In this document: piece by piece, positions 38,033 through 53,716 of the stretch
Position numbering within the stretch: the first letter of the stretch is position 1
Layout: the number at the start of each line of letters is the position of its first letter
Assembly: GCF_019703855.1 (NCBI RefSeq)
Contig: NZ_AP024086.1
Span: forward strand, 3,368,501-3,432,500
Source of the DNA: Desulfomarina profundi
GTDB taxonomy: Bacteria; Desulfobacterota; Desulfobulbia; Desulfobulbales; Desulfocapsaceae
Length of the DNA stretch: 64,000 nt
Direction of reading: 5' to 3'
Program-made: the position numbers and the translations under genes
Notes under the pieces: generated by a model
The model's database searches: none
What the model was told of the DNA's origin: nothing
The model's input: the letters and a program-made list of their open reading frames with translations, nothing else

Positions 38033-38839
38033 CTACATCCATCGTTTACGTCGTTTATATGATTTCACATTCTTGAATGATTTTCTCCCGCCCCCCTGGG
38101 TAATTCCCATATAGAACTCCTTCACATCCGGATTATCCTGCAGTTCCGCCGAGGGTCCTTCGAGGACTATTTTACCCGACTCCATTATATATGCATAGTC
38201 AGAAACTGCCAGTGCAACCTTGGCATTCTGCTCGACAACCAGGATAGTGGTGTCAAGCTCTCTGTTAATAACCTTTATATTATCAAATATTTCTTTTACC
38301 AGTAAAGGCGCAAGGCCAAGGGAAGGCTCGTCGAGCATCAGCATTTTCGGTGCTGCCATCATCGCCCGGGCAATGGCGATCATCTGCTGCTCTCCGCCTG
38401 AACTGTATCCCGCCATTCTGTTTGTCACTTTGGACAACCTGGGGAAATGTCTGTACATCAGCTCATTATCTTCCCGGATTTTTTTGGAACCGTCTTTTCT
38501 GGTGATTGAACCCACGAGAATATTTTCATTCACGGTCAAGTGCTTGAAGATACGGCGGCCCTCCGGTACCATGACGGAACCAAGTTTAACCACATCGGTT
38601 CCCATCAGCCTGGTTGTATCGGTCCCGTCAAATTTGATATACCCTTCCTTGATTGCACCGTTTTCAGGTTTCAAAAGCCCGCTGATGGCCCTCAGTGTCG
38701 TAGTCTTTCCCGCACCATTGGTTCCCAGAAGTGCGACAATGCTGCCCCGTGGCACGGTCAGGCTGACTCCACGCAACACCTGTATGATGTCATTGTAAAC
38801 AACTTCAATATTATTGACTTCCAGCAGATTATTTTCCAT
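38033..38839 (-). CDS. livF: Branched-chain-type ABC transporter ATP-binding protein LivF
   Basis: A 268-residue ATPase with Walker A LLGTNGAGKTTTLRAISG, ABC signature YSSGGEQQMIAIARAM, Walker B MLMLDEPSLGLAP and switch VVEQNAKVA (the LivF-type Glu-Gln in place of Thr-His). The end KNVKSYKRRKRWM is shared by the subgroup that serves organic-acid/aromatic transport. The correct start is ATG 38839 (MENNLLEVNN). Further upstream the ORF only reads into a 166-bp repeat element that ends three bases before the ATG and replaces any normal ribosome site. Confidence 0.9.
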   Translation of the reverse strand: MENNLLEVNNIEVVYNDIIQVLRGVSLTVPRGSIVALLGTNGAGKTTTLRAISGLLKPENGAIKEGYIKFDGTDTTRLMGTDVVKLGSVMVPEGRRIFKHLTVNENILVGSITRKDGSKKIREDNELMYRHFPRLSKVTNRMAGYSSGGEQQMIAIARAMMAAPKMLMLDEPSLGLAPLLVKEIFDNIKVINRELDTTILVVEQNAKVALAVSDYAYIMESGKIVLEGPSAELQDNPDVKEFYMGITQGGGRKSFKNVKSYKRRKRWM

Positions 38840-38841
38840 AA

Positions 38842-39007
38842 ATGATGATCTCGTAAAAAGTCGTTCAACGTTCTCAGATGGACTCTGGAAAAACTTCGAT
38901 ATACAAGGCGTGGCGGTGTCGTGTAAGCGCAGGCGTACATAGAGTACGTCGAGCATTACACGATCACCCCACAACGCAGTAGATCGGAGTTTTTACGAGT
39001 CCATCAT
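38842..39007. repeat. 166-bp element A, copy 2, abutting livF
   Basis: Same 166-bp element as 17357-17522, with the right and left terminal repeats ATGATG.TCTCGTAAAAA / TTTTTACGAGTCCATCAT. It fills the gap between livK and livF and ends three bases before the livF start codon. The central hairpin (GTGTCGTGTAA ... TTACACGATCAC) is intact. Confidence 0.85.
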
Positions 39008-39099
39008 AAATATGTTCTTTCAAGTTCGGCTTTACTATACCGACAGCCGGAAGGACCAACTGTCGGCTTTGAGATTGAAAAAGCCAGGTAATTAAACAA

Positions 39100-40328
39100 T
39101 TACTTGATCTTCTTCATAAATTCAGACTGGATCGGAGTACCGACTTTCTTAAAAGATCCGCTCTGAACAGTATAAATCTGCAACATGTCAACTCCCGCAC
39201 GATCAGTCTTTGAATAGGTTACAGGACCGATCGTGGTGTAGGGGAAATAAGCATTCTTGCCATTCATCTCATTCAGGGTTTTATAAAGATTCGCTCTCGT
39301 CACCTCGAGTCCTGCCGCCTTGGTACGCTTAATCGCCTCGGTCGCAACCTGAGCAACCATGATGCCGGCCGCATAGTTGTGAGAGTTGGCCGCCTTCTCG
39401 TCGCGACCGTATCGCTTGGCCAGGGCCAGCTGCTTTTCAGTGCCTTCATTTTTTTCGGAAGTCAGATTGAACGAACAACTCCAGACATAACCTTCACAGG
39501 CATCCCCCGCCAGGGCAATAAGATCGTTACCACCGGTATAATGAACACCAAGAAAGGTCAGTTTTCCTTTCTCACCGTATGTCTTGGCGGTCAAACCGAG
39601 ACGGGCTGCATCCTTGAGCATTGTTGCGACAGGAGATTGAACCGTATGGCAGAGAACATACTGAACACCTTTGGACATGAGTCTTTTCAACATGGCAGAA
39701 TTATCCAGATCCTTACCGTGTTCCACAACTTCAACAATTTCCATGTTGAGTCCAGCGGCGACAGCTTTCTTTGCATCATCAACCGGTCCTCTTCCGAAAG
39801 CGGAAGGATGAATAAACATGGCGACTTTTGCTTTCCCACCCTTGTGGTTTTTCACAACATATTCAGACAGGGCAACAAGCTGCTCAGAATAGGATGCCAC
39901 AGGCAGGAAAATATAATTGGAACCGTCCAGGTTTCCAGCATGATAGGATGCGGGGAGAACAGGAATTTTTTCCTCTTCAAAATCCCTCTTTAGACCGAGA
40001 GTACTCCCTGTTGAATAGTTGAGGTACATGACAATACCCTCGTCAAGATACTCTTCAAAATTTCTCTTGGTAATATCAGTTTTATACTGATCATCCCTGA
40101 TGGTGCAGTCGATGGTATCGTCACCCAGCATCTTTGTTTCATTGACAAACTTGAAATAATCTTCAGTTCCTTTGGAATAAGGGTTACCTGCATCTGATGT
40201 CGGTCCTGTTATAGCCAGGGACATCCCGAGTTTATAGACTTTCCCCCCGCATTTGCCACGGTGGTCAATGCAAAGAATGCTGCAAGGATCATGAGTGTAT
40301 TGAAAAATAAGGTTTTCCTGTTTACCAT
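39100..40328 (-). CDS. livK: Branched-chain-type periplasmic binding protein LivK, frameshifted
   Basis: Type I periplasmic-binding protein (Leu/Ile/Val-binding, receptor family). From ATG 40328 (AGGAGGAG upstream) it has a signal peptide, MVNRKTLFFNTLMILAAFFA, ending in ANA. The frame then breaks at the C6 tract 40243-40248. One added G gives ANAGGKVYKLGMSLAITGPTSDAG, joining to the main ORF that otherwise begins internally at 40224. The mature part has the typical GNPYSKGTEDYFKFVNE and SKTDRAGVDMLQIYTVQSGSF. It lies in the Liv operon between livM and livF. The ligand is probably an organic acid, given the acyl-CoA ligase in the operon. Confidence 0.85.
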
Positions 40329-40432
40329 GTTCTCCTCCTGTTTTGTTTTTTTACTTCTACCTACTACTTCTCCTCGCTTTCAGGCGAAACAAGTTCGCCT
40401 GATCTTCTGAACCGACAACATCCGTTCACTAC

Positions 40433-40464
40433 AATTGACACAATGTTCATGAGAAATTCAGGGC
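40433..40464. repeat. Remnant right end of 225-bp element B
   Basis: AATTGACACAATGTTCATGAG with GAAATTCAGGGC following matches the right end of the 225-bp element (ends at 40689 and 57981). It directly abuts a full copy, so a tandem or earlier insertion decayed here. Confidence 0.55.
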
Positions 40465-40689
40465 TAACCCGCATTTTTCATCAGTTCAGGCGGCGTCAGC
40501 TACAAAATTTTCAAGAGTAAATAATAGTAGCCTATATTTACTGTTGAAATATTGCAGAAGATGGCGTCGCCTGGGCTGACCTTGGGTGACCATTGTGTCA
40601 ATTTTGTTCGACTACTGATAGTTGGCTAATTATTTGTATTCTACAGCTCATCTCAAAATTGACACAATGTTCATGAGAAATGCGGGTTA
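40465..40689. repeat. 225-bp element B, copy 1 (TA-flanked MITE)
   Basis: Exactly 225 bp, like the copy at 57757-57981, about 93-95% alike by eye. Terminal inverted repeats TAACCCGCATTTTTCATCA / CATGAGAAATGCGGGTTA. TA at both outer ends suits a TA target duplication. There is no ORF. Its right end includes the TTA that is the livM stop codon (40687-40689). It separates livM from livK. Confidence 0.85.
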
Positions 40690-41781
40690 ATACCTGAATG
40701 GCCATAATTTGGTGTAGGATTTTACAATCCTCCACCAGTTGGAAATCCCCCTGGGCTCAAACATCAAAAACAACACAATCACCAGGCCGAAAGTAAACGG
40801 TTTGAGTGCAGTGGCCAGGTTCATACTCGACGGCAGGTACTGACCGGCAAATTCTGCAAGGGCCCCCACCTTGAGATCGAGATATTTAATGGCAACGGGT
40901 CCCCAGAAAGATCCGTTTAAAGTTCCAAGGCCTCCGACAATGGCCATGGCAAGATAGGAAATTGATTCATGCAGGGTAAACGACTCAAAGCCAACACCCC
41001 TGTACAGATACGCGTGCAGGGCACCGGCAACCCCTGCAAAAAAACCGGACAGGGCAAAGGCATATACCTTTGTAAGACCGGGATTCATACCCATGGCGTC
41101 AGCCGCCCTGTCATTGTCCCTTACTGCCACAAGGCTCCTCCCGTACCTCGTTTTCAGCAGGTTTCGAATCCCGAATCCCAACAGGACCACAACTGTCAGG
41201 ATAACAAAATACCAGAACACGTAATGGTCTCTTCTCCCCACTTTACCGGTGAACCAGAAGACCCTGCCAACGAAAATCGTCTGTCCCTGGTTGAAAAATG
41301 ACATGAAATTGATAACCCATTGGAAAATCATCTGAAACGAAAGAGTAGCAATAGCAAGATAGAGATGTTTCAACCGCAGAGCCGGCAGACCGACAATTGC
41401 GCCGAAAACCGCCCCCATGAAACCACTGACCAGGATAAGCAGTGGCCAGAAATGGGTAACCAGCACATGGGTATCCCCGATAACCCTGCAGAATGAAGCC
41501 ACTGTATAGGCACCTATACCCACAAAAGCAGCATGGCCGATGGAGATAAGGCCGGCAAATCCGGTGACCAGGTTCAATCCCATAACGGCAACAATAGCGA
41601 TCAGTATATTATCAATCACCAGCATGATTTTATTGCTGAGATGGAAAAAAAGAGGCCAGACAAAGAGCAGAACAAGAAAGAAAAGAAAGATCGACCTGTC
41701 GAGGCTGGTGAGAAAATTCCTCTGTTCCTCTTTATAAGAAGTAAAGAAATTACCTGTAGCTAACCATTTATTTGCTGACAT
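40687..41781 (-). CDS. livM: Branched-chain-type ABC transporter permease LivM
   Basis: A 364-residue permease with about nine to ten hydrophobic helices. The LivM motifs are GLNLVTGFAGLISIGHAAFVGIGAY and, near the C terminus, AMAIVGGLGTLNGSFWGPV, plus the cytoplasmic loop VAVRDNDRAADAMGMN that meets the ATPases. It follows livH by three bases. Its C terminus reads KLWPFRY and the stop codon is supplied by the inserted 225-bp element, so the original end may have been a little different. Confidence 0.92.
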   Translation of the reverse strand: MSANKWLATGNFFTSYKEEQRNFLTSLDRSIFLFFLVLLFVWPLFFHLSNKIMLVIDNILIAIVAVMGLNLVTGFAGLISIGHAAFVGIGAYTVASFCRVIGDTHVLVTHFWPLLILVSGFMGAVFGAIVGLPALRLKHLYLAIATLSFQMIFQWVINFMSFFNQGQTIFVGRVFWFTGKVGRRDHYVFWYFVILTVVVLLGFGIRNLLKTRYGRSLVAVRDNDRAADAMGMNPGLTKVYAFALSGFFAGVAGALHAYLYRGVGFESFTLHESISYLAMAIVGGLGTLNGSFWGPVAIKYLDLKVGALAEFAGQYLPSSMNLATALKPFTFGLVIVLFLMFEPRGISNWWRIVKSYTKLWPFRY

Positions 41782-41784
41782 AGA

Positions 41785-42678
41785 TTACACCCGCTCAATT
41801 TCGTGAATTCCAAATAAACCATGAGGTTTAAAAAGAAGAATGATCAGTAGAATAACATAGGGCATGACATCCCCCGTACCGTTCAGTCCCCAGTTGCCAT
41901 CCAGGTAACCGCTGGCAAACTGCTGAATAAGCCCCATGATAATCCCTGCCACCACAGCTCCGAGTATCGAATCCAGTCCACCGAGTATAACAACTGGAAA
42001 AACGATGATTCCAAAAGAATGAAGTGTATCAAAATTGAGTCCGGTAATATTACCGATAATACACCCGGCGGCGGCAGCGGAAAGACCGGCAGTCGCCCAG
42101 GCAAGTCCGAAAACCTTCGGCACGGAAATTCCTACCGACATTGAGGCAAACTGGTCATCAGATACGGCCCGCATGGAAATTCCAACAGTTGATTTCTTAA
42201 AAAACCAGGAAAAACCACCTATGAGAATAAAGGTCAGTATCACCCCCACCAGCTGGGTCCAGGAAATAGAGACACCACCGAAAACCAGGGGATCCTGGGG
42301 CAGAAAAGCCGGAAAAGAATAGTTTTCGGTACCAAACGGAGTCAGGTAAATCAGACCGTCCAGGATCGATCCAAGACCAATTGTCACCATAATAACAGAA
42401 ATAATCGGTTCTCCGATCAACCGACGCAAGAAAACCCTTTCCACGCTCATGGCGAGAAAAAAGGTTATGGCCATACTTCCCAGAAATGAAAAGAAAATAG
42501 GAATACCGACTGTGACGGTGAGAAAATAGGTAATAAAAGCACCAATGGCAATCAGCTGGCCATGGGCAAAGTTGGCAACTCTGCTCGATTTATACACCAG
42601 AACCAGTCCAAGGGCAGCCAGGGCATATATCGATCCCACCACAATTCCACTGACAACAATTTGAAAGAAATAGCTCAT
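41785..42678 (-). CDS. livH: Branched-chain-type ABC transporter permease LivH
   Basis: A 297-residue permease beginning MSYFFQIVVSGIVVGSIYALAALGLVLVYK, with LivH-type NFAHGQLIAIGAFI, then RAVSDDQFASMSVGIS in the loop contacting ATPases and FPVVILGGLDSILGAVVAG in the C-terminal half. Its ATG overlaps the stop codon of the acyl-CoA ligase gene by one base, so transporter and ligase are co-translated. A substrate pathway from outside to acyl-CoA is implied by this order. Confidence 0.92.
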   Translation of the reverse strand: MSYFFQIVVSGIVVGSIYALAALGLVLVYKSSRVANFAHGQLIAIGAFITYFLTVTVGIPIFFSFLGSMAITFFLAMSVERVFLRRLIGEPIISVIMVTIGLGSILDGLIYLTPFGTENYSFPAFLPQDPLVFGGVSISWTQLVGVILTFILIGGFSWFFKKSTVGISMRAVSDDQFASMSVGISVPKVFGLAWATAGLSAAAAGCIIGNITGLNFDTLHSFGIIVFPVVILGGLDSILGAVVAGIIMGLIQQFASGYLDGNWGLNGTGDVMPYVILLIILLFKPHGLFGIHEIERV

Positions 42679-44602
42679 CAGACTCCTTCCACCGTGTAGA
42701 ATTTAATACTTGCCGTAACCGTTGTTGATTGCCCGTCCTGGTACTGGAAGGACGCCTCAACATCTTTTGTAGTTACGGATTCATCGTACAGCGCATCGTA
42801 CAGATGCTGGTATTTTTCCTGGACAAATTTTCGACGGATCTTGCCGGTCTTTGTCAGCTCCCCGTCATCCACATCAAGCAGTTTATAGAGTAGAGCAAAG
42901 CGCTTGATCCGAAAATGTTCCTTTTCGGCCCTCGCGTTGACATCGAGAACCTCCTTCATGATCAGCTCAGCCACTTCCGTTTTTGCCGACAGATCCATAT
43001 ACGTTGTATAGGATATACCATGGTCTTCAGCCCACTTACCCATAACTACGGGGTCGATATTGATCAGGCAGCTGACAAAATCCTCGTTGTTCCCGAAAAT
43101 AATGGCCTCTTTAATATAGGGACTGAATTTCAGTGAATTCTCCAGAAACATGGGTGAAAACATTTCACCCTTGTTACTGTGCATGACATCGGACAACCGG
43201 TCGATGACAATAAGGTGACCGTGCTCATCTATATAGCCGGCATCACCAGAATGGAGCCAGCCACCTTCAAGGGCCTCGGCCGTTTTCTCGGGCAATCCAT
43301 AATAACCGGGAGAAACGGAAGGGGAACGTGAGAGGATTTCACCATCCTCGGCGATCTTGCACTCGGTTCCGGGAAGAGGTTTTCCGACAGTATCAGGCCT
43401 GACATCACCATCCCTGTGCATATAGGCAATACCGGTGATCTCCGTCTGTCCATAAATCTGTTTCAGGTTCACACCGATGGCCTGGTAAAAGGTGAACAGC
43501 TCAGGCCCGAGGGCTGCTCCACCGGTATAGGCACGCCTCAGCCGCAACAGTCCCATCTGGTTGATCAGGGGCCGGAACATCATCAGGGTACCCAACCAGG
43601 ATTTTATTTTCAGGCCCACAGGCATATTTCCCCCTCGCATACGGTATTCCGCCGCCTCCAGTCCCACCTTGATAAAATAGTTATAAAGCAGCTTGTTCAG
43701 CCAATAGGACTGATCGATCTTCAGCCAGATTTCCGAACGGATCGTTTCGTAGATTCTCGGAGCACCGAACATGAAATGGGGACCGATCTCCTTCAGATCC
43801 GACATCGCTGTCTCAACAGATTCAGGGAAGTTGATGGTAATTCCCGTTGCCATGGCAACCCCGAAAGAGTTCATCTGCTCTCCAATCCAGGCAAAGGGGA
43901 GAAAGGAAACGTATTCATCCGTTGGCTCCAGGGGATCAACCTCGGTTATCCTGACACCCATATTGATATAGTTGCGGTGAGTCATCATGGTCCCCTTGGG
44001 AAGGCCGGTGGTACCAGATGTAAGGCAGAGATGACAGACATCATCAGGTTTGCCCCGATCCACCAGCGACTCGAAGAGATCCGGATTCTTATTATGTTCC
44101 TCTTCCCCCATTTTATACAGGTCACTGATATCAATGAACCAGTCATCCGACATATATTCCCGCATCCCCGGGGATCTTCAAAAATAACCTTCTTGACACC
44201 CGGTATCCTGTCCCGCACCTCCAGCACCTTGTCCACCTGCTCCTGGTTATCACAGAAAACGGCACTGACTTTCAGGTAATCAATGATCTGGGCAATTTCA
44301 TCGGGCATACTGGTCTGGTAAATTCCTGCGGAAATAGCACCAAGGGAATGGCCACCAATAGCGATAAAAAGCAACTCCGGAATATTGTCACTGATGATGG
44401 CAATGGTATCATTTTTTCCAAGGCCAATGGCCCTGAGTCCAAGGGCGGTCCTGCGGACATAACTGTAATAATCCTCCCAGCTGTAAGTATTCCAGATACC
44501 GAAATCCTTTTCCCGCAGTGCCGGGCGTTTCGGTGTGCTTCTGACCCGCCAGCGCAGCAGCTGTGGGATAGAATATTCAACCAGTTCTTCACGTGTAGTC
44601 AT
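42678..44602 (-). CDS. Long-chain-type acyl-CoA ligase within the Liv operon, frameshifted
   Basis: AMP-forming CoA ligase of about 640 residues when restored. It has the P-loop CLTSGTTGLPKGTMMTHRNY, then YGQTEITG, SGDAGYIDEHGHLIVIDR and the C-terminal LTKTGKIRRKFVQEKY with the catalytic Lys; it is closest to the FAA1-like long-chain class. The frame breaks at the CCCCGGGG run 44166-44173. One extra base joins KKVIFEDPRG to MREYMSDDWFIDISDLY; without it there are two ORFs (43985-44602 and 42678-44165). Between livG and livH, it probably activates the acid imported by the transporter. Confidence 0.87.
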
Positions 44603-44607
44603 CTTGT

Positions 44608-45368
44608 TTATTCCTCCCCGATATAGGCTTCAATTACCTTCGGATTCTGCGCAACCTCTTCCGGGGTACCGGAACCTATGACCTCCCCAAAATCAAGGAC
44701 ATAAATCCGGTCAGAAATATCCATGACCACACCAAGATCGTGCTCAACCAGAACCACGGTAATATTTCGCTCCTTCTGAATATCCATGACAAAGCGGACG
44801 ATATCTTCTTTTTCCTCCTGATTCATCCCCGCCATGGGTTCGTCCAGGAGGAGGATATCAGGGGCAAGTGTCAATGCCCGCGCGACCTCAACTTTTTTCT
44901 GGACCCCGTAACTCAGATTCCCCACCAGGCTTTTCCGATAGGGTTCCAGTTCCATGAAGTCGATGACACTCTCCACATAGGCCCTGTTTTCCGCCTCAAT
45001 CCTCGAGGCTTTACCGTAAAAGAAAACAGCATGCAAAAAGCTGTATTGCAGCTTCGAATGACGGGCAAGAAGAAGATTATCGAGAACAGAAAGCCCGGAA
45101 AACAGCTCCAGATTCTGAAACGCTCTGGCTATCCCCATATTTGAAACCTCGTGGGGGAAGCGTTTGTCAATTTCTTCTCTCCATAGAAAATATCACCCAA
45201 GGTCGGATGATAGAATCCGGAGATACAGTTCAACATACTGGTCTTACCGGCTCCATTGGGACCGATAATGGAGGTTATCAGTCCCTCTTCTATTTTCATA
45301 TTAACATTTGACAGAGCCTTCAAACCGCCAAAAGAAAGAGTAACGTCCGAGATATTTAAATATGGCAT
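44608..45368 (-). CDS. livG: Branched-chain-type ABC transporter ATP-binding protein LivG, frameshifted
   Basis: ATPase of about 254 residues with Walker A IIGPNGAGKTSMLNCISG, signature LSYGVQKKVEVARAL, Walker B ILLLDEPMAGM and VLVEHDLGVVMDISD. The frame breaks at the G5 tract 45153-45157 (C5 on the coding strand). One C more gives LTNASPHEVSNMGIARAFQNLELF, linking the two ORFs 45129-45368 and 44608-45138. It begins the Liv transporter block, 480 bp after the fatty-acyl ligase gene. No clear Shine-Dalgarno is seen before the ATG at 45368. Confidence 0.88.
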
Positions 45369-45848: not shown

Positions 45849-47534
45849 TCATGCCGTAGCTATGTCAGCAGCATCCTGACGCCCCAAAAGACAGGTCCCT
45901 TGTTCGCGTAGCTTATATTTCTGAATTTTCCCAGAGGCAGTTGCCGGATATTCGTCCACAACAAAAAAGAATTCAGGAATCTTGTGAAAGGCTATTTTAT
46001 CCGTACAGAACTGCCTGAACTCTTCACTTTCCGCTGTTTCACCTTCCCTGAGAATGATAAAAGCAGCAACCTCCTCCCCATACTTTTCACTGGGAATACC
46101 GACAACCTGAACATCAAGAATTTTCGGATGTGTATAGAGAAATTCTTCAATCTCCCTCGGATAAATATTTTCACCACCCCTGATTATCATATCTTTCATC
46201 CGACCGGTAATCTTGCAGTACCCGTTTTCATCCATGACGGCAAGATCACCCGTATGCAGCCAACCATCTCGGTCAATGGCCGCCGCAGTTGCTTCGTCCA
46301 TTTTATAATATCCTTTCATGACATGATATCCGCGGGTACACAATTCTCCCTGGGTTCCACGTGCCACCTCTTCACCTGTGACAATATCCGCAATTTTTAC
46401 TTCGATATTGGGCAGGGCTCTGCCCACGGTACTGACCCTCAGCTCCAGGCTGTCTTCCGGTCGAGTCTGGGTTATAACAGGAGAAGCTTCTGTCTGACCA
46501 TAGGCAATTGTCATCTCGGAGGCGCCCATTTTATCCACAACCCTTTTCATCACTTCAATGGGGCAGGGTGAACCTGCCATAATCCCCGTACGCAAACTGG
46601 AAGTGTCATAATTTTTCTTTTCCATTTCCTCCAGTTCCGCAATAAACATAGTGGGAACACCGTGGAGGGCCGTACATTTATTGGCCTGAACCGTCTCCAG
46701 AACCTTGTCGGTCACAAACTGGGTCACAGGTGACATGGTCGCCGCAGAAACCACACAGGTAAGCGTTCCCAGCACACACCCGAAACAGTGGAAAAACGGT
46801 ACAGGAATACACAGATTATCCTCACTTGACAGATTCATGCATTCACCGATACTCTTTGCATTTCCAATAATATTGGTATGGGTCAACATTACTCCTTTCG
46901 GAAAACCAGTAGTACCGGAGGTATACTGCATGTTGATCACGTCATCCGGTGACAGGGACTGCTGACGCTGTTGCAGGTCTTCATCCGAAACCGTCCTGCC
47001 CATTGCGATTACTTCATCCCAGCCATACATACCTTTCATACGGTCCTCCTCCGGACCGATGTACACGACATTTTTTAACAGGGGCAGTTTTTTACACTCG
47101 AGTTTTCCCGGTTCACACTCATCCAGCTCCGGACAGACCTCCCTGATGATTTTCAGATATTCATCAGATTCACGGACTCCACCAATAAAAACCAGGGTTG
47201 TAGAATCGGACTGTGACATCAGGTATTCCAACTCAAAGCTTCGATAACTGGTATTGACCGTCACCAGCACAGCACCCATTTTCCCTGTTCCAAACTGCGA
47301 ATAGAGCCATTCGGGAACATTGTTCGCCCATATTGCAACCTTCTCACCCTTTTCCACGCCAAGAGCCATAAAACCTTTTGCCACATCATTGCACACGTCT
47401 CTGAACTGTTTCCAGGTGTGGCTGATACCGTATTCATAATAGTCAACCGCCTTTTTTTCAGCGAACTGATCAGCCACAAGGTCAACAAGCTGTCCCAAAG
47501 TTGTATTGCCCACTTCGTATACTGGCCTCTGCAT
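45849..47534 (-). CDS. Fatty-acyl-CoA ligase (AMP-forming, FadD-like)
   Basis: A 561-residue ANL enzyme from ATG 47534 (GGAGGAG upstream), activating a carboxylic acid to its CoA thioester. It has the P-loop QYTSGTTGFPKGVMLTHTN, YGQTEASPVITQTR, GWLHTGDLAVMDENGYCKITGRMKDMIIRGGENIYP, and PATASGKIQKYKLRE with the adenylation lysine. It resembles medium/short-chain acyl-CoA ligases found beside acyl-CoA dehydrogenases. It follows the isovaleryl-CoA dehydrogenase gene on the same strand, so branched or short-chain fatty acids are a likely substrate. Confidence 0.92.
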   Translation of the reverse strand: MQRPVYEVGNTTLGQLVDLVADQFAEKKAVDYYEYGISHTWKQFRDVCNDVAKGFMALGVEKGEKVAIWANNVPEWLYSQFGTGKMGAVLVTVNTSYRSFELEYLMSQSDSTTLVFIGGVRESDEYLKIIREVCPELDECEPGKLECKKLPLLKNVVYIGPEEDRMKGMYGWDEVIAMGRTVSDEDLQQRQQSLSPDDVINMQYTSGTTGFPKGVMLTHTNIIGNAKSIGECMNLSSEDNLCIPVPFFHCFGCVLGTLTCVVSAATMSPVTQFVTDKVLETVQANKCTALHGVPTMFIAELEEMEKKNYDTSSLRTGIMAGSPCPIEVMKRVVDKMGASEMTIAYGQTEASPVITQTRPEDSLELRVSTVGRALPNIEVKIADIVTGEEVARGTQGELCTRGYHVMKGYYKMDEATAAAIDRDGWLHTGDLAVMDENGYCKITGRMKDMIIRGGENIYPREIEEFLYTHPKILDVQVVGIPSEKYGEEVAAFIILREGETAESEEFRQFCTDKIAFHKIPEFFFVVDEYPATASGKIQKYKLREQGTCLLGRQDAADIATA

Positions 47535-47582
47535 ATTTACTCCTCCGGTTTTATGTATGTTTTCGAAACATTCCACATGGTT

Positions 47583-48749
47583 CTATTCGGTATCTCGAAA
47601 CAGCTCCCTGCCAATCAGCATTCTTCGAATTTCGCTGGTTCCGGCTCCTATTTCATACAGTTTGGCATCACGCAGCAGGCGTCCGGTGGGAAATTCGTTG
47701 ATATATCCATTTCCTCCCAGGCACTGGATTGCCTCCAGTGCCATCCAGGTGGCTTTTTCAGCAGTAAACAGAATGACAGCCGCGGCATCCTTACGGATAT
47801 TCGAGCTTTGATCAGCTGCTCTGGCGACCATATACACATAAGATTTACAGGCATTCCAGGTGGCATACATATCCGCCAGCTTACCCTGCATCAGTTCAAA
47901 TTCTCCAATAGCGCGACCGAACTGTCTCCGGGTATGAATATAGGGCAGCACAACGTCCATGCAGGCATTCATAATGCCCAGGGGGCCGCCGGACAACACA
48001 AGACGTTCATAATTCAGCCCACTCATCAGAACCTGAACACCCTGGTTGAGCTGACCGAGAATATTCTCCTTCGGAACCCGGCAATTTTCAAAAACCAGCT
48101 CACAGGTGGGAGACCCACGCATACCGAGCTTATCCAGCTTGGGACTGGTGGAAAACCCTGGGAAGGTTTTTTCCACCAGAAATGCGGTAATCCCCTTGTG
48201 CTGTCTCTCCGGAGCCGTTTTGGCGTACACGACAAGTACATTGGCATGGGGACCATTGGTGATCCACATTTTTGAACCGTTCAGCAGATACCCGTCACCA
48301 TCCTCCGTTGCACGCAGACGCATGGAAACAACATCGGACCCGGCTTCGGCTTCACTCATGGCCAGTGCGCCGATATGTTTGCCGCTGATCAGATCGGGAA
48401 GATATTTCTTCTTCTGTTCCTCTGTACCATTTATTTTGATCTGATTAATACAGAGATTGGAATGGGCGCCATAGGCCAGACCGACAGAGGCAGAGCCCCT
48501 GCTTATTTCTTCCATGGCAATGACATGTTCGAGGTACCCCATTCCGGCTCCTCCATATTCCTCGGATACTGTAATACCGAGAAGCCCGAGGGCACCCATT
48601 TTCTGCCAGAGTTCGGGAGGAAACACGTCATTTCGGTCAATTTCCTCCGCTAAAGGAGCAATCTCCTCGCTGACAAAATCATGTACGGTTTCCCGCAAAA
48701 GATTTGCAGTCTCTCCCAGACCAAAATTCAAGAGGGGATACGATCTCAT
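47583..48749 (-). CDS. ivd: Isovaleryl-CoA dehydrogenase
   Basis: A 388-residue FAD-dependent acyl-CoA dehydrogenase. IVD-specific hallmarks are [35 protein letters not shown] and [20 protein letters not shown]. The last carries the IVD catalytic Glu, placed in this helix instead of the MCAD position, where the sequence reads [12 protein letters not shown]. It oxidises isovaleryl-CoA to 3-methylcrotonyl-CoA, passing electrons to ETF. GGGAGG precedes the ATG. It lies between the acetoacetyl-CoA synthetase gene and the acyl-CoA ligase gene. Confidence 0.93.
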
Positions 48750-48845: not shown

Positions 48846-50794
48846 CTACGATTTCAGTTCCTCAATATCTGTAAAAAAATCAAGTGCCTCCGGATTTTTC
48901 AAGGCATCCTTATTCTTCACTTCACGGCCATGAATCATTTTTTTGACCGCCAGTTCAACTTTTTTCATATTCAGGGTATAAGGGATATCCGGTGCCTCAA
49001 TAATCTTTGCGGGAACATGTCTCGGAGAAGCGTTGGTGCGGATATTCTTTCTGATCTCATTTTTCAGTTCATCATTTAATGCATACTCTGGGCGCATTTT
49101 CACGAAAAGAATGACACGGATATCATTCTGCCATTCCTGACCAACGACTACGCTGTCCTCAATGCCTTCCATTCTTTCCAGGATTCGGTAGATTTCAGCC
49201 GTACCGATCCTGACTCCTCCCGGATTCAACGTGGCATCAGAGCGACCATACATAATGACACCACCCCGCTCGGTAACTTCAATAAAATCCCCATGAGTCC
49301 AGATTCCGGGATATTCATCGAAATAGGCTGAATGGTACTTGCTGCCGTCTTCATCATCCCAGAAATAGATGGGCATTGACGGAAAAGGTGCAGTACAGAC
49401 CAGTTCACCCTGTCTGCCGATGACCGGATTTCCCGATTCATCATAGGCAAAGACCTTCATGGCAAGTCCCCTGCACTGCAGCTCACCACTGTACACCGGC
49501 CCCATGGGGTTACCCAGGGCAAAGCAACCGTTGAGATCTGAACCTCCAGAAATGGAAGCCAGCTGCAGGTCCGATTTTACTTCGGCATAAATAAATTCAA
49601 AATCTTCTTCGGAAAGAGGTGACCCGGTTGACAGCAGGGCTTTCATAGCTGCAAGGTCAAAATCCTTACCCGGTCTGACCCCGGTGTTTTTCAGGGCTGC
49701 TATATAGCCGGCACTGGTACCGAAAACCGTGATCTTCTCGTCCCTGGCCATCTGCCACAGTGTTTCCGGACCGGGATGGAAAGGATTGCCGTCGTAAAGC
49801 ACCAGGGTCGCTCCCACTGCCAGAGAGCTTGTGAGCCAGTTCCACATCATCCAGCCACAGGTGGTAAAATAGAAAATGGTATCCTCTCTCTTCAGATCCG
49901 TGTGCAGTATCAGTTCCTTGAGATGATGGACGAGAACACCACCTGCACTCTGCACCATGCATTTCGGCAAACCGGTAGTACCAGAGGAATACATGATGTA
50001 CAGGGGATGATCAAAGGGCAGCTGAACAAATTCTATCTCTTGCGCTTTTTTTTCAATGAAATCTTCAAATAGAATGGCTGCGGGAAGTGTTGTCAGATCA
50101 GGCTGTTCACTGACGTATGGCACAACAACCAGTTTTTCAATAGACGGAATTTTCTGCAGTATTTCTCCTGCCCGCACAAGACTGTCGATAGGTTTTCCTT
50201 TGAAAAAATAACCGTCAGCCGTGAAAAGCACTTTCGGTTGCGTCTGCCCGAACCTGTCGAGAATCCCTTTGATTCCAAAATCCGGAGAACAGGAGGACCA
50301 GATTGCCCCGATACTTGTCGCCGCAAGCATACCGATAATCGACTCCGGCATATTGGGTACAAACCCCACAACCCTGTCACCTTTCGTAACACCCGCATTT
50401 TTCAATGCAGCGGCGACCCCGGCCACCTGGTGGTAGAGTTCACTATAGGTCAATGTTCTCCTGACCCTGTCCTCCCCCTGAAAACAAGTGCTGTTTTATC
50501 GTCCCGGTATCGAAGAAGATTTTCCGCGAAATTCAGCCGGGCTCCAGAAAACCACTTTGCCCCCGGCATTTTGCCCGGATCATCTATAACTTCGGTATAT
50601 GGTGTGGAAAAACGGATCTCTGCAAAATCCCAGAACTCCGCCCAGAACTGTTCCAGATTGTCCACAGACCACTGGTAGAGAGCGTCATAGTCGGCAAAAT
50701 CCGTCCCGAACTTCCCGTTAACAGTCTGCATGAACCGATACATATTGGAACTCTTTACCCGTTGTTCCGATGGTTCCCATAATAATTTCGACAT
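48846..50794 (-). CDS. aacS: Acetoacetyl-CoA synthetase, frameshifted
   Basis: ANL enzyme activating acetoacetate to acetoacetyl-CoA, about 650 residues when restored. It starts at ATG 50794 (AAGGAG six bases upstream); the ATG at 50821 is badly spaced. Hallmarks: MSKLLWEPSEQRVKSSNMYRF, WFSGARLNFAENLLR, YSSGTTGLPKCMVQSAGG, TTCGWMMWNW, and the C-terminal IPYTLNMKKVELAVKKMIHG. The break is at the C5 tract 50474-50478; one more G gives FRGEDRVRRTLTYSELYHQ. It fits leucine/isovalerate breakdown with the adjacent isovaleryl-CoA dehydrogenase and thiolase. Confidence 0.9.
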
Positions 50795-50882
50795 GACAAA
50801 CTCCTTGATCACGTTACGCATTCTCCTGAATCCGCTCCAGAAATCCTCCTATCCACTGCTCACCGGGGGAACTTTTTCTTCA

Positions 50883-50946: not shown

Positions 50947-51537
50947 TCAGAAAGAAAATCCTTCCGGCAGTTCTTCCGCTTTCGTTCCTTCCGCTACCCA
51001 GGCAAGATCAAGAATGGTATAGGTCGGACCCGTTGTTTTGAAAATAGGCACGACTTTCATCCCTATCGCAGGTTCACCAACACTGAGATAACTCATGAGA
51101 ATTGTGGTCACTCCGTCAAACTCAATATTTATAAACCGGATCGGTTTATCCAGAAGATTAAAAGCCCCCGACCTGGCACATTCCATAAAGGTGTGAACTC
51201 TGGCCGTTTTTTTGGCAATATCGGTCAGATCAACAACACTCATCCTGGCCAGACAATCGGGACAGTGAATGCGAAATGGAATATAGATGGACCCTTTTCC
51301 TTCGCAGTCATTATTGTCACACCGGGTTGCCAGCAGTTTTCCCTTGCTGAGAGACTCAAAAAAAACAGCCTCCCCTCCGTAGGAATGGATATAGGTCATA
51401 TCCCGCGGATTGGTTACCCCAAGCAGCTTCCAGTTATCATCAGCATCGCGAATAGGCATATTAGGCGTCAGATGATGGAAGTTCCCTTTGAGTTTATACT
51501 GATTATTTTTTACAAATACCTGCCCGAACATACTCAT
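50947..51537 (-). CDS. DUF35 OB-fold / zinc-ribbon protein, partner of thiolase
   Basis: A 196-residue protein with a rubredoxin-like zinc ribbon (RCDNNDCEGKGSIYIPFRIHCPDC: Cys-x4-Cys ... Cys-x2-Cys, around residues 73-95) and a C-terminal OB fold (VHTFMECARSGAFNL ... INIEFDGVTTILMSYL). Proteins of this type form complexes with non-decarboxylating thiolases, stabilising or channelling the CoA substrate (known from archaeal acetoacetyl-CoA thiolase/HMG-CoA synthase and from benzylsuccinate thiolase). It is encoded 65 bp downstream of the thiolase-like gene, in the same unit. Confidence 0.9.
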   Translation of the reverse strand: MSMFGQVFVKNNQYKLKGNFHHLTPNMPIRDADDNWKLLGVTNPRDMTYIHSYGGEAVFFESLSKGKLLATRCDNNDCEGKGSIYIPFRIHCPDCLARMSVVDLTDIAKKTARVHTFMECARSGAFNLLDKPIRFINIEFDGVTTILMSYLSVGEPAIGMKVVPIFKTTGPTYTILDLAWVAEGTKAEELPEGFSF

Positions 51538-51602: not shown

Positions 51603-53039
51603 TTACACGTCTTGTTTTAACAGATGATCCGGATCCATGAGGATAGTTGAAGTAACATGGGATCCGACACCTGCATGACTGATAGCCATACCTCTTTTGG
51701 CTCCCTTGACCTGCAGATTTGTCCAATCTTCCGGCTTTTCCCTGTCAAACGCTTTCCAGACCTGTTCATCGCCATGGAGTTCTTCCCACCTGTTCCAGAG
51801 ATGGGAGGCAATCTCAAATGTCTGCATGATACCGGTTGCGCCCACGGCATGCATGCAACCGATCAGTCCACCGGAAAGATTCGATGGCAGTTTTCCGGGT
51901 TCTCCCGTATTTGGATTGATGTGATAGCAGTCACCCGATTCCACGTAATCTCTTCCTTCACCGTAGGGACGAATACCGATATCCTCATAGGTCTGCACAT
52001 CACTGATGGTAAACGCATCATGGAGTTCAACCACATCGAGGTCCTCTGTGGGATCAGTGATACCAGCCATACCGTAACCATAGTATGCAGCAATACGGGC
52101 AGCGAGAAATCCGGTAAAACCGGGATACCTGTCTCCACCCGGAAAACGTTCACCCAGATCTTTGTACTGATCGGGTGTTTCATTGGGCAGAAGTGGAATA
52201 TCCATGTCACGCCTATCCGCTGGCCGCAGGGTATGGGAACCGGCAGCACACCAGATCCTGAGCGGTTTATTCTTCGAATTTGCCGTCAACTTCATTGCTG
52301 TGTCTTCATCACAGAGAATGGTACAAGCGGCTCCCACACTCATGAGACAGCAGTCAAGGGCCCGGAGTGGATAAGCTACAACCGGTGAATTGAGAACATC
52401 ATCCACGGTAATATCCATAGGTGACTGAGCATAGGGGTTGAATCTGGCATAACCATGATGCTTCACAGCAATTTCGGCCAGGGTTTTTCTGAAAGATTCC
52501 TCAGACTTACCGAATATCTGCCAGTAACGCTGGGCCATAACTGCATAATATCCCGTGTAAATATGACCAAGAGGAGATTCCCAGTCCTTGTCTGCTGCAC
52601 AGGATATGAGAAAATTACCCTCATCGGTAGGAACCTCATCCATCCGTTCCCAACCCATGACAAGAACACAGTCTGAATAGCCGGAGGCTACCGCTTTCAA
52701 ACCTTCCCAGATTGTTGAACCGCCGGTTGCTCCACCGGTTTTGACGCCGACATTGCCCAGAGGATCAAGACCGAGTCGATCATGGATGACTGACTCGCCA
52801 AGCAACTGATCTCCAAAATGATCGGCAAAATGGCCGTAATAACAACTGTGGATATAGGTTTTCAACTCTGCCGCCGACATATCAAGCAGGTTGGATGCCA
52901 TGACAAAAGCATCGACACACAGCTCTTCCGTTCTTTTGTCCGGAAAGGCACGGTCGAATTTAGACTGACCTGCAGTCACCAGGTATACGGGTCTCTGCAG
53001 TTTCGGGATTTTTAACTGTTGTTCGCTGAATGTAATCAT
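51603..53039 (-). CDS. Thiolase-superfamily protein (SCP2-like), lacking the expected nucleophilic Cys
   Basis: A 478-residue thiolase-fold protein with VVELHDAFTISDVQTYEDIG (SCP-x/ACAT-type His region) and GGLIGCMHAVGATGIMQTFE, holding the catalytic His of 'GGHPxGATG' here in CMHAVGATG. Where SCP2 thiolases have 'CASGGxA' as nucleophile, the aligned segment is VKTGGATGGSTIWEG, so the Cys seems replaced by Gly. Activity is therefore uncertain; it may work with the DUF35 partner encoded next, or with a different Cys. It is expected to act on acetoacetyl-CoA or a related beta-ketoacyl-CoA. AAAGGGG precedes the ATG. Confidence 0.82.
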   Translation of the reverse strand: MITFSEQQLKIPKLQRPVYLVTAGQSKFDRAFPDKRTEELCVDAFVMASNLLDMSAAELKTYIHSCYYGHFADHFGDQLLGESVIHDRLGLDPLGNVGVKTGGATGGSTIWEGLKAVASGYSDCVLVMGWERMDEVPTDEGNFLISCAADKDWESPLGHIYTGYYAVMAQRYWQIFGKSEESFRKTLAEIAVKHHGYARFNPYAQSPMDITVDDVLNSPVVAYPLRALDCCLMSVGAACTILCDEDTAMKLTANSKNKPLRIWCAAGSHTLRPADRRDMDIPLLPNETPDQYKDLGERFPGGDRYPGFTGFLAARIAAYYGYGMAGITDPTEDLDVVELHDAFTISDVQTYEDIGIRPYGEGRDYVESGDCYHINPNTGEPGKLPSNLSGGLIGCMHAVGATGIMQTFEIASHLWNRWEELHGDEQVWKAFDREKPEDWTNLQVKGAKRGMAISHAGVGSHVTSTILMDPDHLLKQDV

Positions 53040-53173: not shown

Positions 53174-53716
53174 TTAAAGCGTCCCCACCCACAGCACAAA
53201 ACTTCGCCTACCGCTGTTATTGGTTATTTTCTGATTTTCCGGCTTTGACCAGAAATGCACGGCATCTCCCTCAACCATATGAAGAATCTCACCGCATAAA
53301 ATAAAATCAATTGAACCTTTCAGCACACAGAGTACTTCCTGGCTGTTCTTTATATTTTTCCTGGCCGGAATCGATTTTCCCGGCTCAATAACAAGCACCG
53401 ATGAATCGATCACCGACCTGTATTCCGGTGGAAAAAACCTGCGGGTGACAAAACCGGTATGGGACAGGTCTATATCATCCCATTCCGATCTTTTAATCAG
53501 CACAACATTCTGTTGTTCACTCACCTGGGAAATAATATCTCCCGCATTGACACCGATTGCCTGGCAGATACGGATAAGAGTATCCACCGACGGCGAGCTG
53601 ACATCATTCTCCACCTGACTCAGAAAACCTTCTGAAATCAATGCCTTTTCAGCAACTTTTTTCAAAGTCAGTTTTCGGTCTTTTCTACATTTCCTTATTA
53701 ACGTACCGATATTCAT
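53174..53716 (-). CDS. XRE-family regulator with cupin domain
   Basis: A 180-residue protein with an N-terminal helix-turn-helix (LTLKKVAEKALISEGFLSQVENDVSSPSVDTLIRI, residues 17-51) and a C-terminal cupin barrel (KNSQEVLCVLKGSIDFILCGEILHMVEGDAVHFW), the type represented by SutR/PuuR-like regulators. It heads the catabolic block running leftward to the Liv genes and probably controls it. A palindrome, TAAGTTAAATCTTAACCTAT, lies at 53781-53800 upstream. Confidence 0.88.
   Translation of the reverse strand: MNIGTLIRKCRKDRKLTLKKVAEKALISEGFLSQVENDVSSPSVDTLIRICQAIGVNAGDIISQVSEQQNVVLIKRSEWDDIDLSHTGFVTRRFFPPEYRSVIDSSVLVIEPGKSIPARKNIKNSQEVLCVLKGSIDFILCGEILHMVEGDAVHFWSKPENQKITNNSGRRSFVLWVGTL

Follow-up and report, generated by a model that had tools for sequence, protein, structure and literature searches.

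Thiolase-fold aldolases that have lost the catalytic cysteine and work with a DUF35 partner are a known kind. Two described systems are the bile acid side-chain aldolase Sal with its DUF35 partner Shy (PDB 9myr) and Ltp2 with its DUF35 partner ChsH2 (6ok1). According to the excerpted text of PMC12329534 and PMC11321319, both are linked to a hydratase and have beta-hydroxyacyl-CoA substrates, and Sal, which cleaves them, has a glycine at the nucleophile position (PMC12329534). A DUF35-type partner is also found in the archaeal thiolase/HMG-CoA synthase/DUF35 complex (6esq, 6et9) and, in the excerpts of PMC12329534, in the benzoylsuccinyl-CoA thiolase BbsAB (7pxp). Here, we describe a thiolase-like protein from Desulfomarina profundi that shares the thiolase fold, the DUF35 partner, and the lost cysteine with Sal and Ltp2; the separate DUF35 subunit, the HDxF motif, and the second-half histidine with the archaeal complex; and the HDAF motif with BbsB. 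Unlike Sal and Ltp2, it has no fused MaoC and sits in a leucine/isovalerate rather than a steroid setting. The archaeal acetoacetyl-CoA thiolase (6esq) and BbsB (aligned QSACSAG) both keep the nucleophile cysteine, whereas the protein described here has Gly103. What is new is a clade of its own that combines HDAF with the thiolase histidine pair, its wide spread, and its leucine/isovalerate operons without 3-methylcrotonyl-CoA carboxylase (MCC).

The window is the whole 64,000-nt stretch of DNA analyzed, which lies at 3.37–3.43 Mb of a 4.3 Mb single-contig genome; all coordinates are positions within it. The initial annotation placed a thiolase-like open reading frame at 51603–53039 without giving its strand, and we find it there on the minus strand. 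The operon and its regulator consist of the following features:

53174..53716, minus strand: HTH-cupin regulator upstream of the operon (PF01381 above cut-off, Cupin_2 below)
51603..53039, minus strand: thiolase-like protein without the catalytic cysteine, 478 aa, member of NF004982 (PRK06365)
50947..51537, minus strand: DUF35 partner, zinc ribbon plus OB fold, 196 aa, zinc cysteines 73, 78, 92, and 95
50450..50821, minus strand: N-terminal part of acetoacetyl-CoA synthetase (AACS) in another frame (PF16177 and TIGR01217)
48846..50453, minus strand: main part of AACS (TIGR01217, 793 bits against a cut-off of 520.9)
47583..48749, minus strand: isovaleryl-CoA dehydrogenase (IVD; phmmer)
45849..47576, minus strand: AMP-forming acyl-CoA ligase, PRK12583-like but below that model's cut-off

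The thiolase-like protein scores 709.7 bits against the NF004982 profile, above the curated cut-off of 695, and so belongs to that family. The family name carries no function beyond "thiolase domain-containing protein," and we found no paper on PRK06365 or NF004982 in the open-licence PMC literature. These thiolase look-alikes are a widespread, unstudied family.

The AlphaFold model of the thiolase-like protein has a mean pLDDT of 88.6 and a pTM of 0.92, with one weak loop at residues 151–159. We compared it with solved structures using VIA-align. The top match is a P. furiosus thiolase (7yvy is among the closest thiolases), with a Z score of 47.6 and an R.M.S.D. of 1.7 over 358 aligned residues. 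It is followed by the archaeal thiolase 6esq (Z score 47.5, R.M.S.D. 2.0, 389 residues, 32% identity), ST0096 (47.3, 1.7, 346 residues), and BbsB (44.6, 2.1, 372 residues). Ltp2 (41.2, 2.6, 367 residues) is level with the trypanosomatid SCP2 thiolases, and Sal is more distant (38.7, 2.8, 377 residues). The fold is thus nearer to the archaeal thiolases and BbsB (Z scores 44–48) than to Ltp2 or Sal, an observation that speaks against reading the protein as a retro-aldolase.

The DUF35 partner falls below the Pfam cut-offs for zf-ChsH2 (14.6 vs 27.1 bits) and OB_ChsH2_C (13.5 vs 23.2 bits). Among other partners in the family, that of locus L094 passes for the OB domain, and those of L061 and L087 are below cut-off. 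The AlphaFold model of the partner (pLDDT 86.9, pTM 0.68) finds 3irb as its best Foldseek match (E 5e-8) and also matches the DUF35 chains E/F of 6esq (3e-4). Zinc cysteines 73 and 78 are present in 75/75 partners, and cysteines 92 and 95 in 74/75, with one gap. Because the fold matches and the four cysteines are conserved, we accept the partner as real despite its Pfam scores, as first annotated. Of the 80 loci retained (the best 80 of at least 517 relatives), 75 have a DUF35 gene 3' of the thiolase-like gene: 74 by a scripted rule (73 within 0.4 kb and L110 at 1.6 kb) plus the overlapping pair of L069. Three of the remaining loci (L085, L086, and L088) end at contig ends, and no DUF35 gene was found in the L048 and L101 stretches. 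We infer that the two proteins form a physical complex.

The translated window protein contains VKTGGATGGSTIWEG, in which the initial annotation had noticed glycines where thiolases carry their nucleophile. The residues relevant to the active site are encoded as follows:

52719..52736, minus strand: GGATGG, G102–G107, with Gly103 at the nucleophile cysteine position (profile alignment)
52011..52022, minus strand: H340-D-A-F343, in place of the HDCF of SCP2 thiolases (alignment)
51849..51851, minus strand: His397, within CMHAVGATG, conserved in 43/43
51855–51857, minus strand: Cys395, not conserved (27/43)

In both the phmmer and the family-profile alignments, GGATGG falls on ACASG in 6esq (archaeal acetoacetyl-CoA thiolase) and on NCSTG in 6hsj (SCP2 thiolase), and Gly103 therefore takes the place of the nucleophile cysteine. 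This overlay rests on the sequence profile because the structure comparison printed no residue pairs. We then used an alignment (A2) of the window protein and 42 relatives from 110 loci, hand-picked for full length and spread and 37–90% identical to the window protein. Gly103 is present in all 43 sequences, so a sequencing error, a pseudogene, or a decayed copy is ruled out. The missing catalytic cysteine claimed at the outset is borne out, and the profile alignment finds no cysteine at the nucleophile position, the finding that had been named as telling against that claim. A protein with G[AG]TGG and HDA[FY] is encoded at 30/30 loci of the phylum search; HDAF is found in the window protein and its relatives in groups A and C, and HDAY in groups B and D (the four groups are our own sequence-based sorting).

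SCP2-type and archaeal thiolases combine the thiolase fold with two histidines and a nucleophilic cysteine in the N-terminal half. The window protein has the fold and both histidines (H340 and H397 are invariant, 43/43) and lacks that cysteine. We take His397 to be the histidine of the thiolase GHP motif. SCP2-type thiolases have a second cysteine in HDCF, for which the window protein, with HDAF, has alanine (Ala342, 43/43). This cysteine is not a strict thiolase mark, because BbsB and 7yvy also carry HDAF, and BbsB keeps the first cysteine. The window protein shares with Ltp2 and Sal the loss of the nucleophile cysteine and the DUF35 partner, and lacks their tyrosine base; it keeps H340 and H397 with HDAF, whereas the motif is YDHF in Ltp2, YDCY in Sal, and HDCF in SCP2 thiolases (excerpts of PMC12329534). 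That the tyrosine base of Ltp2 and Sal is a histidine here is a second observation against a retro-aldolase reading.

Next, we examined the genes around the pair. On the minus strand, they run in the order thiolase-like, DUF35 (65 bp gap), AACS (125 bp), IVD (96 bp), and AMP-forming ligase (6 bp). The operon has no hydratase gene, a point against the hydration-dependent route proposed below. Promoter and terminator scans gave chance-level results only. The two neighbors named by the initial annotation stand, with AACS split over two frames and the IVD genuine, and the AMP-forming ligase is a further member. The intact AACS homolog of L031 aligns across both window frames. The five best solved matches of the acyl-CoA dehydrogenase are all IVDs (4kto, 4o5m, 1ivh, 8sgr, and 9jq4; 526–595 bits, with the next kind at 315), by which it is a true IVD. 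The ligase is probably an isovalerate-CoA ligase; a gene 60% identical to it sits within the classical leucine operon of genome G025.

Similar arrangements recur in relatives. Loci L031–L035 keep the regulator, thiolase-like protein, DUF35 partner, AMP ligase, AACS, and IVD; L040 is missing the AMP ligase at the locus, and L036 both AACS and the ligase. The HTH-cupin regulator precedes the thiolase-like gene in L031–L036, among other close relatives. A true IVD is found at the locus in the window operon, seven close relatives, and the gammaproteobacterial MAG L079, where branched-chain oxoacid dehydrogenase (BCKDH) E1 alpha (with the 2-oxoisovalerate dehydrogenase N-terminal domain, PF12573), E1 beta, E2, IVD, thiolase-like, and DUF35 genes stand in a row. 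In L101, the upstream genes include E1 alpha, E1 beta, and a member of the E2 cluster. L055 has an enoyl-CoA hydratase and an acyl-CoA dehydrogenase nearby, with 2-oxoacid:ferredoxin oxidoreductase genes on the opposite strand. In L057 and L089, the gene immediately before the thiolase-like gene encodes an enoyl-CoA hydratase. Glutaconate-CoA-transferase-like genes suspected in Spirochaetes (c44) turned out to be short-chain dehydrogenases. The gene context points to leucine/isovalerate breakdown. Across the family, IVD is found in just 8 of 40 genomes, which speaks against the leucine reading; in all eight, it lies within the thiolase-like operon.

The problem posed by tertiary 3-hydroxyisovaleryl-CoA is usually bypassed by MCC and then HMG-CoA lyase. 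The isovalerate route of Desulfococcus multivorans shares the acyl-CoA synthetase and the step from isovaleryl-CoA to methylcrotonyl-CoA with the window operon, and MCC, a hydratase, and HmgL come next, with proteomic support, in the excerpts of PMC5109826. In contrast, neither MCC nor a canonical HMG-CoA lyase was found in the window genome (no MCC beta at E ≤ 1e-100 and no NF004283 match at E ≤ 1e-30). The window operon joins the first half of the classical route to the thiolase-like complex without the usual second half. The two carboxyltransferases of this genome (four pieces), 30–35% identical to MCC beta, sit among transcarboxylase-like, methylmalonyl-CoA mutase, and sodium-pump-decarboxylase-like genes, as labeled from open reading frames. 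In the flanks of the 80 loci (the best 80 of at least 517), many of which are short, neither MCC subunit, alpha or beta, nor HMG-CoA lyase was found at the limits used, and suspected MCC genes in L087 and L090 (c83/c84) were rejected as HdrA-like and mutase-like.

MCC beta adjoins 0/9 IVD genes that neighbor a thiolase-like gene vs 6/6 IVD genes elsewhere (IVD called at E ≤ 1e-130, plus L079; Fisher p = 0.0002, kinship ignored). In the phylum searches for IVD and MCC, which scored the best few candidates per genome, IVD at this threshold is present in 6 of 297 genomes: the window genome and G088, G002, G025, G225, and G267. The last five have MCC beta (72–75% identity) directly beside IVD, and none of them carries the thiolase-like family, which was found in 31 genomes. 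MCC was not found in 8/9 IVD-bearing operon genomes, including the window genome and that of L079. Desulfopila aestuarii (G299; strain DSM 18488, locus L033, is a cultured close relative) is the sole one of the eight IVD-bearing family genomes with MCC, in a separate operon that also holds another IVD gene, a hydratase gene, and an HMG-CoA lyase gene. Desulfopila sp. IMCC35006 and Desulforhopalus singaporensis carry the thiolase-like operon, and no MCC was found in them. MCC beta occurs in 13 of 85 family genomes searched (7/40 and 6/45). In the phylum draw, MCC is present in 1/18 group A and C genomes vs 60/279 others, which is not significant (p = 0.14, kinship ignored).

With about even confidence, we favor the reading that the thiolase-DUF35 pair acts as a cysteine-less retro-aldolase on a tertiary 3-hydroxy-3-methylacyl-CoA in leucine/isovalerate breakdown. 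A non-Claisen reaction by the complex was among the options first annotated and, with the nucleophile lost, is the best reading. Its substrate is tentatively 3-hydroxyisovaleryl-CoA, which would give acetone and acetyl-CoA without biotin. The AMP ligase or a 2-oxoacid dehydrogenase would yield isovaleryl-CoA, IVD would turn it into 3-methylcrotonyl-CoA, and an enoyl-CoA hydratase would convert this to 3-hydroxyisovaleryl-CoA. A tertiary alcohol cannot be oxidized to a ketone, and 3-hydroxyisovaleryl-CoA is therefore not oxidizable; the thiolase-like/DUF35 complex would split it instead. Gly103 would free space for the ketone half and supply a backbone NH, while H340 and H397 would hold the acetyl-CoA enolate and serve as base and acid. 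There is a precedent in the steroid pathway, where hydration gives a tertiary product and cleavage by Ltp2 pulls its unfavorable equilibrium (excerpts of PMC11321319); 3-hydroxyisovaleryl-CoA poses the same problem.

A biotin-independent leucine/isovalerate route, with hydration of 3-methylcrotonyl-CoA and then an acetone-forming split by the cysteine-less thiolase/DUF35 complex, is thus a possible but doubtful outcome. If true, sulfate reducers, and perhaps also Marinimicrobia, Spirochaetes, and Lokiarchaea, would use it instead of MCC and HMG-CoA lyase; amino-acid oxidation would then yield acetone, and the gap of IVD without MCC in sulfate reducer genomes would be filled, with a new source of acetone (or acetoacetate). 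A widespread "thiolase domain" family would then be lyases, thiolase-type annotations would mislead in uncultured anaerobes and Asgard archaea, and thiolases would have become aldolases outside steroid metabolism with their histidines retained. In the open-licence PMC literature, we found no paper linking 3-hydroxyisovaleryl-CoA to acetone and acetyl-CoA and none on an acetone-forming retro-aldol thiolase acting on an acyl-CoA.

Within the confidence that we give to the retro-aldolase class, a smaller part goes to a second substrate, itself unlikely: the complex may split HMG-CoA to acetoacetate and acetyl-CoA, with AACS activating the acetoacetate. A thiolase-fold aldolase would here stand in for the usual lyase at the final step of the classical leucine pathway. 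HMG-CoA lyase (NF004283) would make the same kind of cut, and its fold is unrelated to the thiolase fold. AACS argues for this substrate. It lies within the operon of the window and of 6/7 close IVD-bearing relatives, and adjoins the thiolase-like gene in L037 and L044, where the acyl-CoA dehydrogenases fall outside the close IVD type. Genome-wide, AACS tracks groups A and C (15/18 genomes vs 94/279 others; p = 0.00004, Fisher, kinship ignored); it is found in 2/13 genomes of groups B and D and in 0/5 classical-operon genomes. Its presence suggests acetoacetate metabolism. A beta-keto acid cleavage enzyme near the thiolase-like gene in 8 of 12 Lokiarchaeal loci also fits HMG-CoA, as do the hydratases of L057 and L089, which match PRK07468 best and the gamma-carboxygeranoyl-CoA hydratase model next, both below cut-off. 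Invariant R272 and R276 could bind a carboxylate. NF004283 matches 8 of 36 family genomes and none in the other 28, in keeping with a lyase of another fold; judged from open reading frames, the matches in G301 and G305 and one of the two G302 matches are located outside leucine operons. However, HMG-CoA from isovaleryl-CoA requires MCC, which few of these genomes have, and that of G299 already stands in its own operon with an HMG-CoA lyase. HMG-CoA as substrate thus explains AACS and leaves the source of HMG-CoA unexplained; 3-hydroxyisovaleryl-CoA explains the missing MCC and leaves AACS unexplained, unless an unrecognized enzyme carboxylates acetone. We place the acetone-forming substrate slightly ahead and keep both.

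We therefore looked at acetone handling. The acetone carboxylase gamma subunit was not found in the window genome or its seven IVD-bearing relatives; five of the 40 family genomes have it, with strong matches in G184 and the Lokiarchaeal G320 and G322. The one HyuB-type gene of the window genome is a long frame with the look of the fused kind, presumably a 5-oxoprolinase, and acetone carboxylase was rejected as the link to AACS there. The one HcmA match of this genome, 47% identical, lies in methylmalonyl-CoA mutase. Acetone activation in sulfate reducers was termed undefined in 2014, in the excerpted text of PMC4103992.

It is improbable, though less so than the readings that follow, that the pair is a (retro-)aldolase whose beta-hydroxyacyl-CoA substrate differs from group to group and has nothing to do with leucine except in the IVD-bearing operons. 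A 2-hydroxyisobutyryl-CoA-mutase-like gene lies upstream in the group C loci L087 and L090 and adjoins the thiolase-like gene in G279, and many loci have other acyl-CoA dehydrogenases or none within the stretch. Against this, groups A and C have identical GGATGG and HDAF motifs, a match that points to a common chemistry but not to a common substrate.

The retro-aldolase reading also has to be set against a protein that is still a thiolase, working through another cysteine or by direct attack of CoA. The closest solved structures are indeed thiolases (7yvy, Z score 47.6; 6esq, 47.5; BbsB, 44.6), and the initial annotation pointed to a cysteine two residues from the histidine in CMHAVGATG. That motif is present and its histidine invariant, but Cys395 is kept in only 27/43 sequences. 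No cysteine is invariant in the 43; the best kept, C231 (42/43), belongs to an LDCC segment in which cysteine is also found in SCP2 thiolase and BbsB. Catalysis through another cysteine, as first proposed, is therefore rejected, and with glycine and alanine fixed at both thiolase cysteine positions, a thiolase is very unlikely. The other option first raised, a non-catalytic scaffold or channeling subunit that binds CoA esters for neighboring enzymes, is marginally less credible still, since H340, D341, H397, Y161, Y164, Y165, R272, and R276 are invariant down to 37% identity (as are G102, T105, G106, and G107), and a scaffold hardly needs these residues.

Matches to the thiolase-like protein at E ≤ 1e-100 occur in 31/297 phylum genomes, and 8/297 are above the family cut-off; the counts come partly from MAGs of varied completeness, and G237 and G328 are one genome under two handles. 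The family was found in 0/14 control genomes, and PHROGs gave no match. In the genome collection, at least 517 of at least 592 stretches encode a relative, and the best 80, which we retained, span Thermodesulfobacteriota, Spirochaetes, Marinimicrobia, Lokiarchaea, Thermoplasmata, Actinomycetota, Planctomycetes, and others. Plasmid records gave 487 matches, none at 60% identity or more. We built a tree from 24 rows of A2 and 15 outsiders, all hand-picked and without Sal and Ltp2 sequences, in which the NF004982-type family forms one side of a branch with support of 100/98. Two plasmid proteins outside the family clade also have glycine for the cysteine. That of a Halococcus plasmid (L153) adjoins DUF35 and enoyl-CoA hydratase genes. 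That of a Rhodococcus plasmid (L156) has GGATGG, EVYAPF, and ANPIGATG, adjoins MaoC-type hydratase and DUF35 genes, and may be read as Ltp2-like; it counts as a further precedent for the retro-aldolase reading. Loss of the cysteine thus seems to occur in more than one lineage, although several outsiders sit on long branches.

Besides the 478-residue thiolase-like protein of the window, other thiolase-like proteins lack the nucleophilic Cys. The solved thiolase-like protein ST0096 from Sulfolobus (PDB 4yzo) carries Ser at this position in the profile alignment and is a close fold match to the predicted model of the window protein, with a Z score of 47.3. A further Cys-less protein, with an HDAF motif, is encoded next to DUF35 and enoyl-CoA hydratase genes on a Halococcus dombrowskii plasmid (locus L153), and places outside the family clade:

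637-1806 of L153, Cys-less HDAF thiolase-like protein

Among the 12 Lokiarchaeal loci, eight encode a beta-keto acid cleavage enzyme (L061, L063, L067, L068, L071, L072, L076, and L077), and seven of these eight also contain additional thiolase-like genes. Six of these additional proteins, encoded in L061, L063, and L067, were inspected; each carries Gly or a gap where the nucleophile would be.

In group C of the family, a stand-alone mutase large subunit gene adjoins the thiolase-like gene (L087, L090, and contig C49 of genome G279). The closest match of the L087 subunit, the one compared, is 2-hydroxyisobutyryl-CoA mutase (PDB 4r3u). We speculate that the group C mutase could channel acetone carbon to 3-hydroxybutyryl-CoA. 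Proteins found in Desulfococcus biacutus grown on acetone include an acetyl-CoA acetyltransferase and B12 mutase subunits (PMC4103992).

Downstream of the window operon, on the same strand, lies a transporter cluster with an interspersed AMP-binding gene:

38033-45138, minus strand, ABC transporter of the branched-chain amino acid type (BPD_transp_2 permeases and ABC_tran proteins, two of each, with Peripla_BP_6)

Transporters of this type have many different substrates; this one may supply the proposed pathway of leucine/isovalerate breakdown.

Acetoacetyl-CoA synthetase occupies two frames in the window (50450-50821 and 48846-50453) and a single frame in relatives. Splits also affect the AMP-binding gene (42678-44602) and the two carboxyltransferases of this genome, a pattern that suggests assembly indels.
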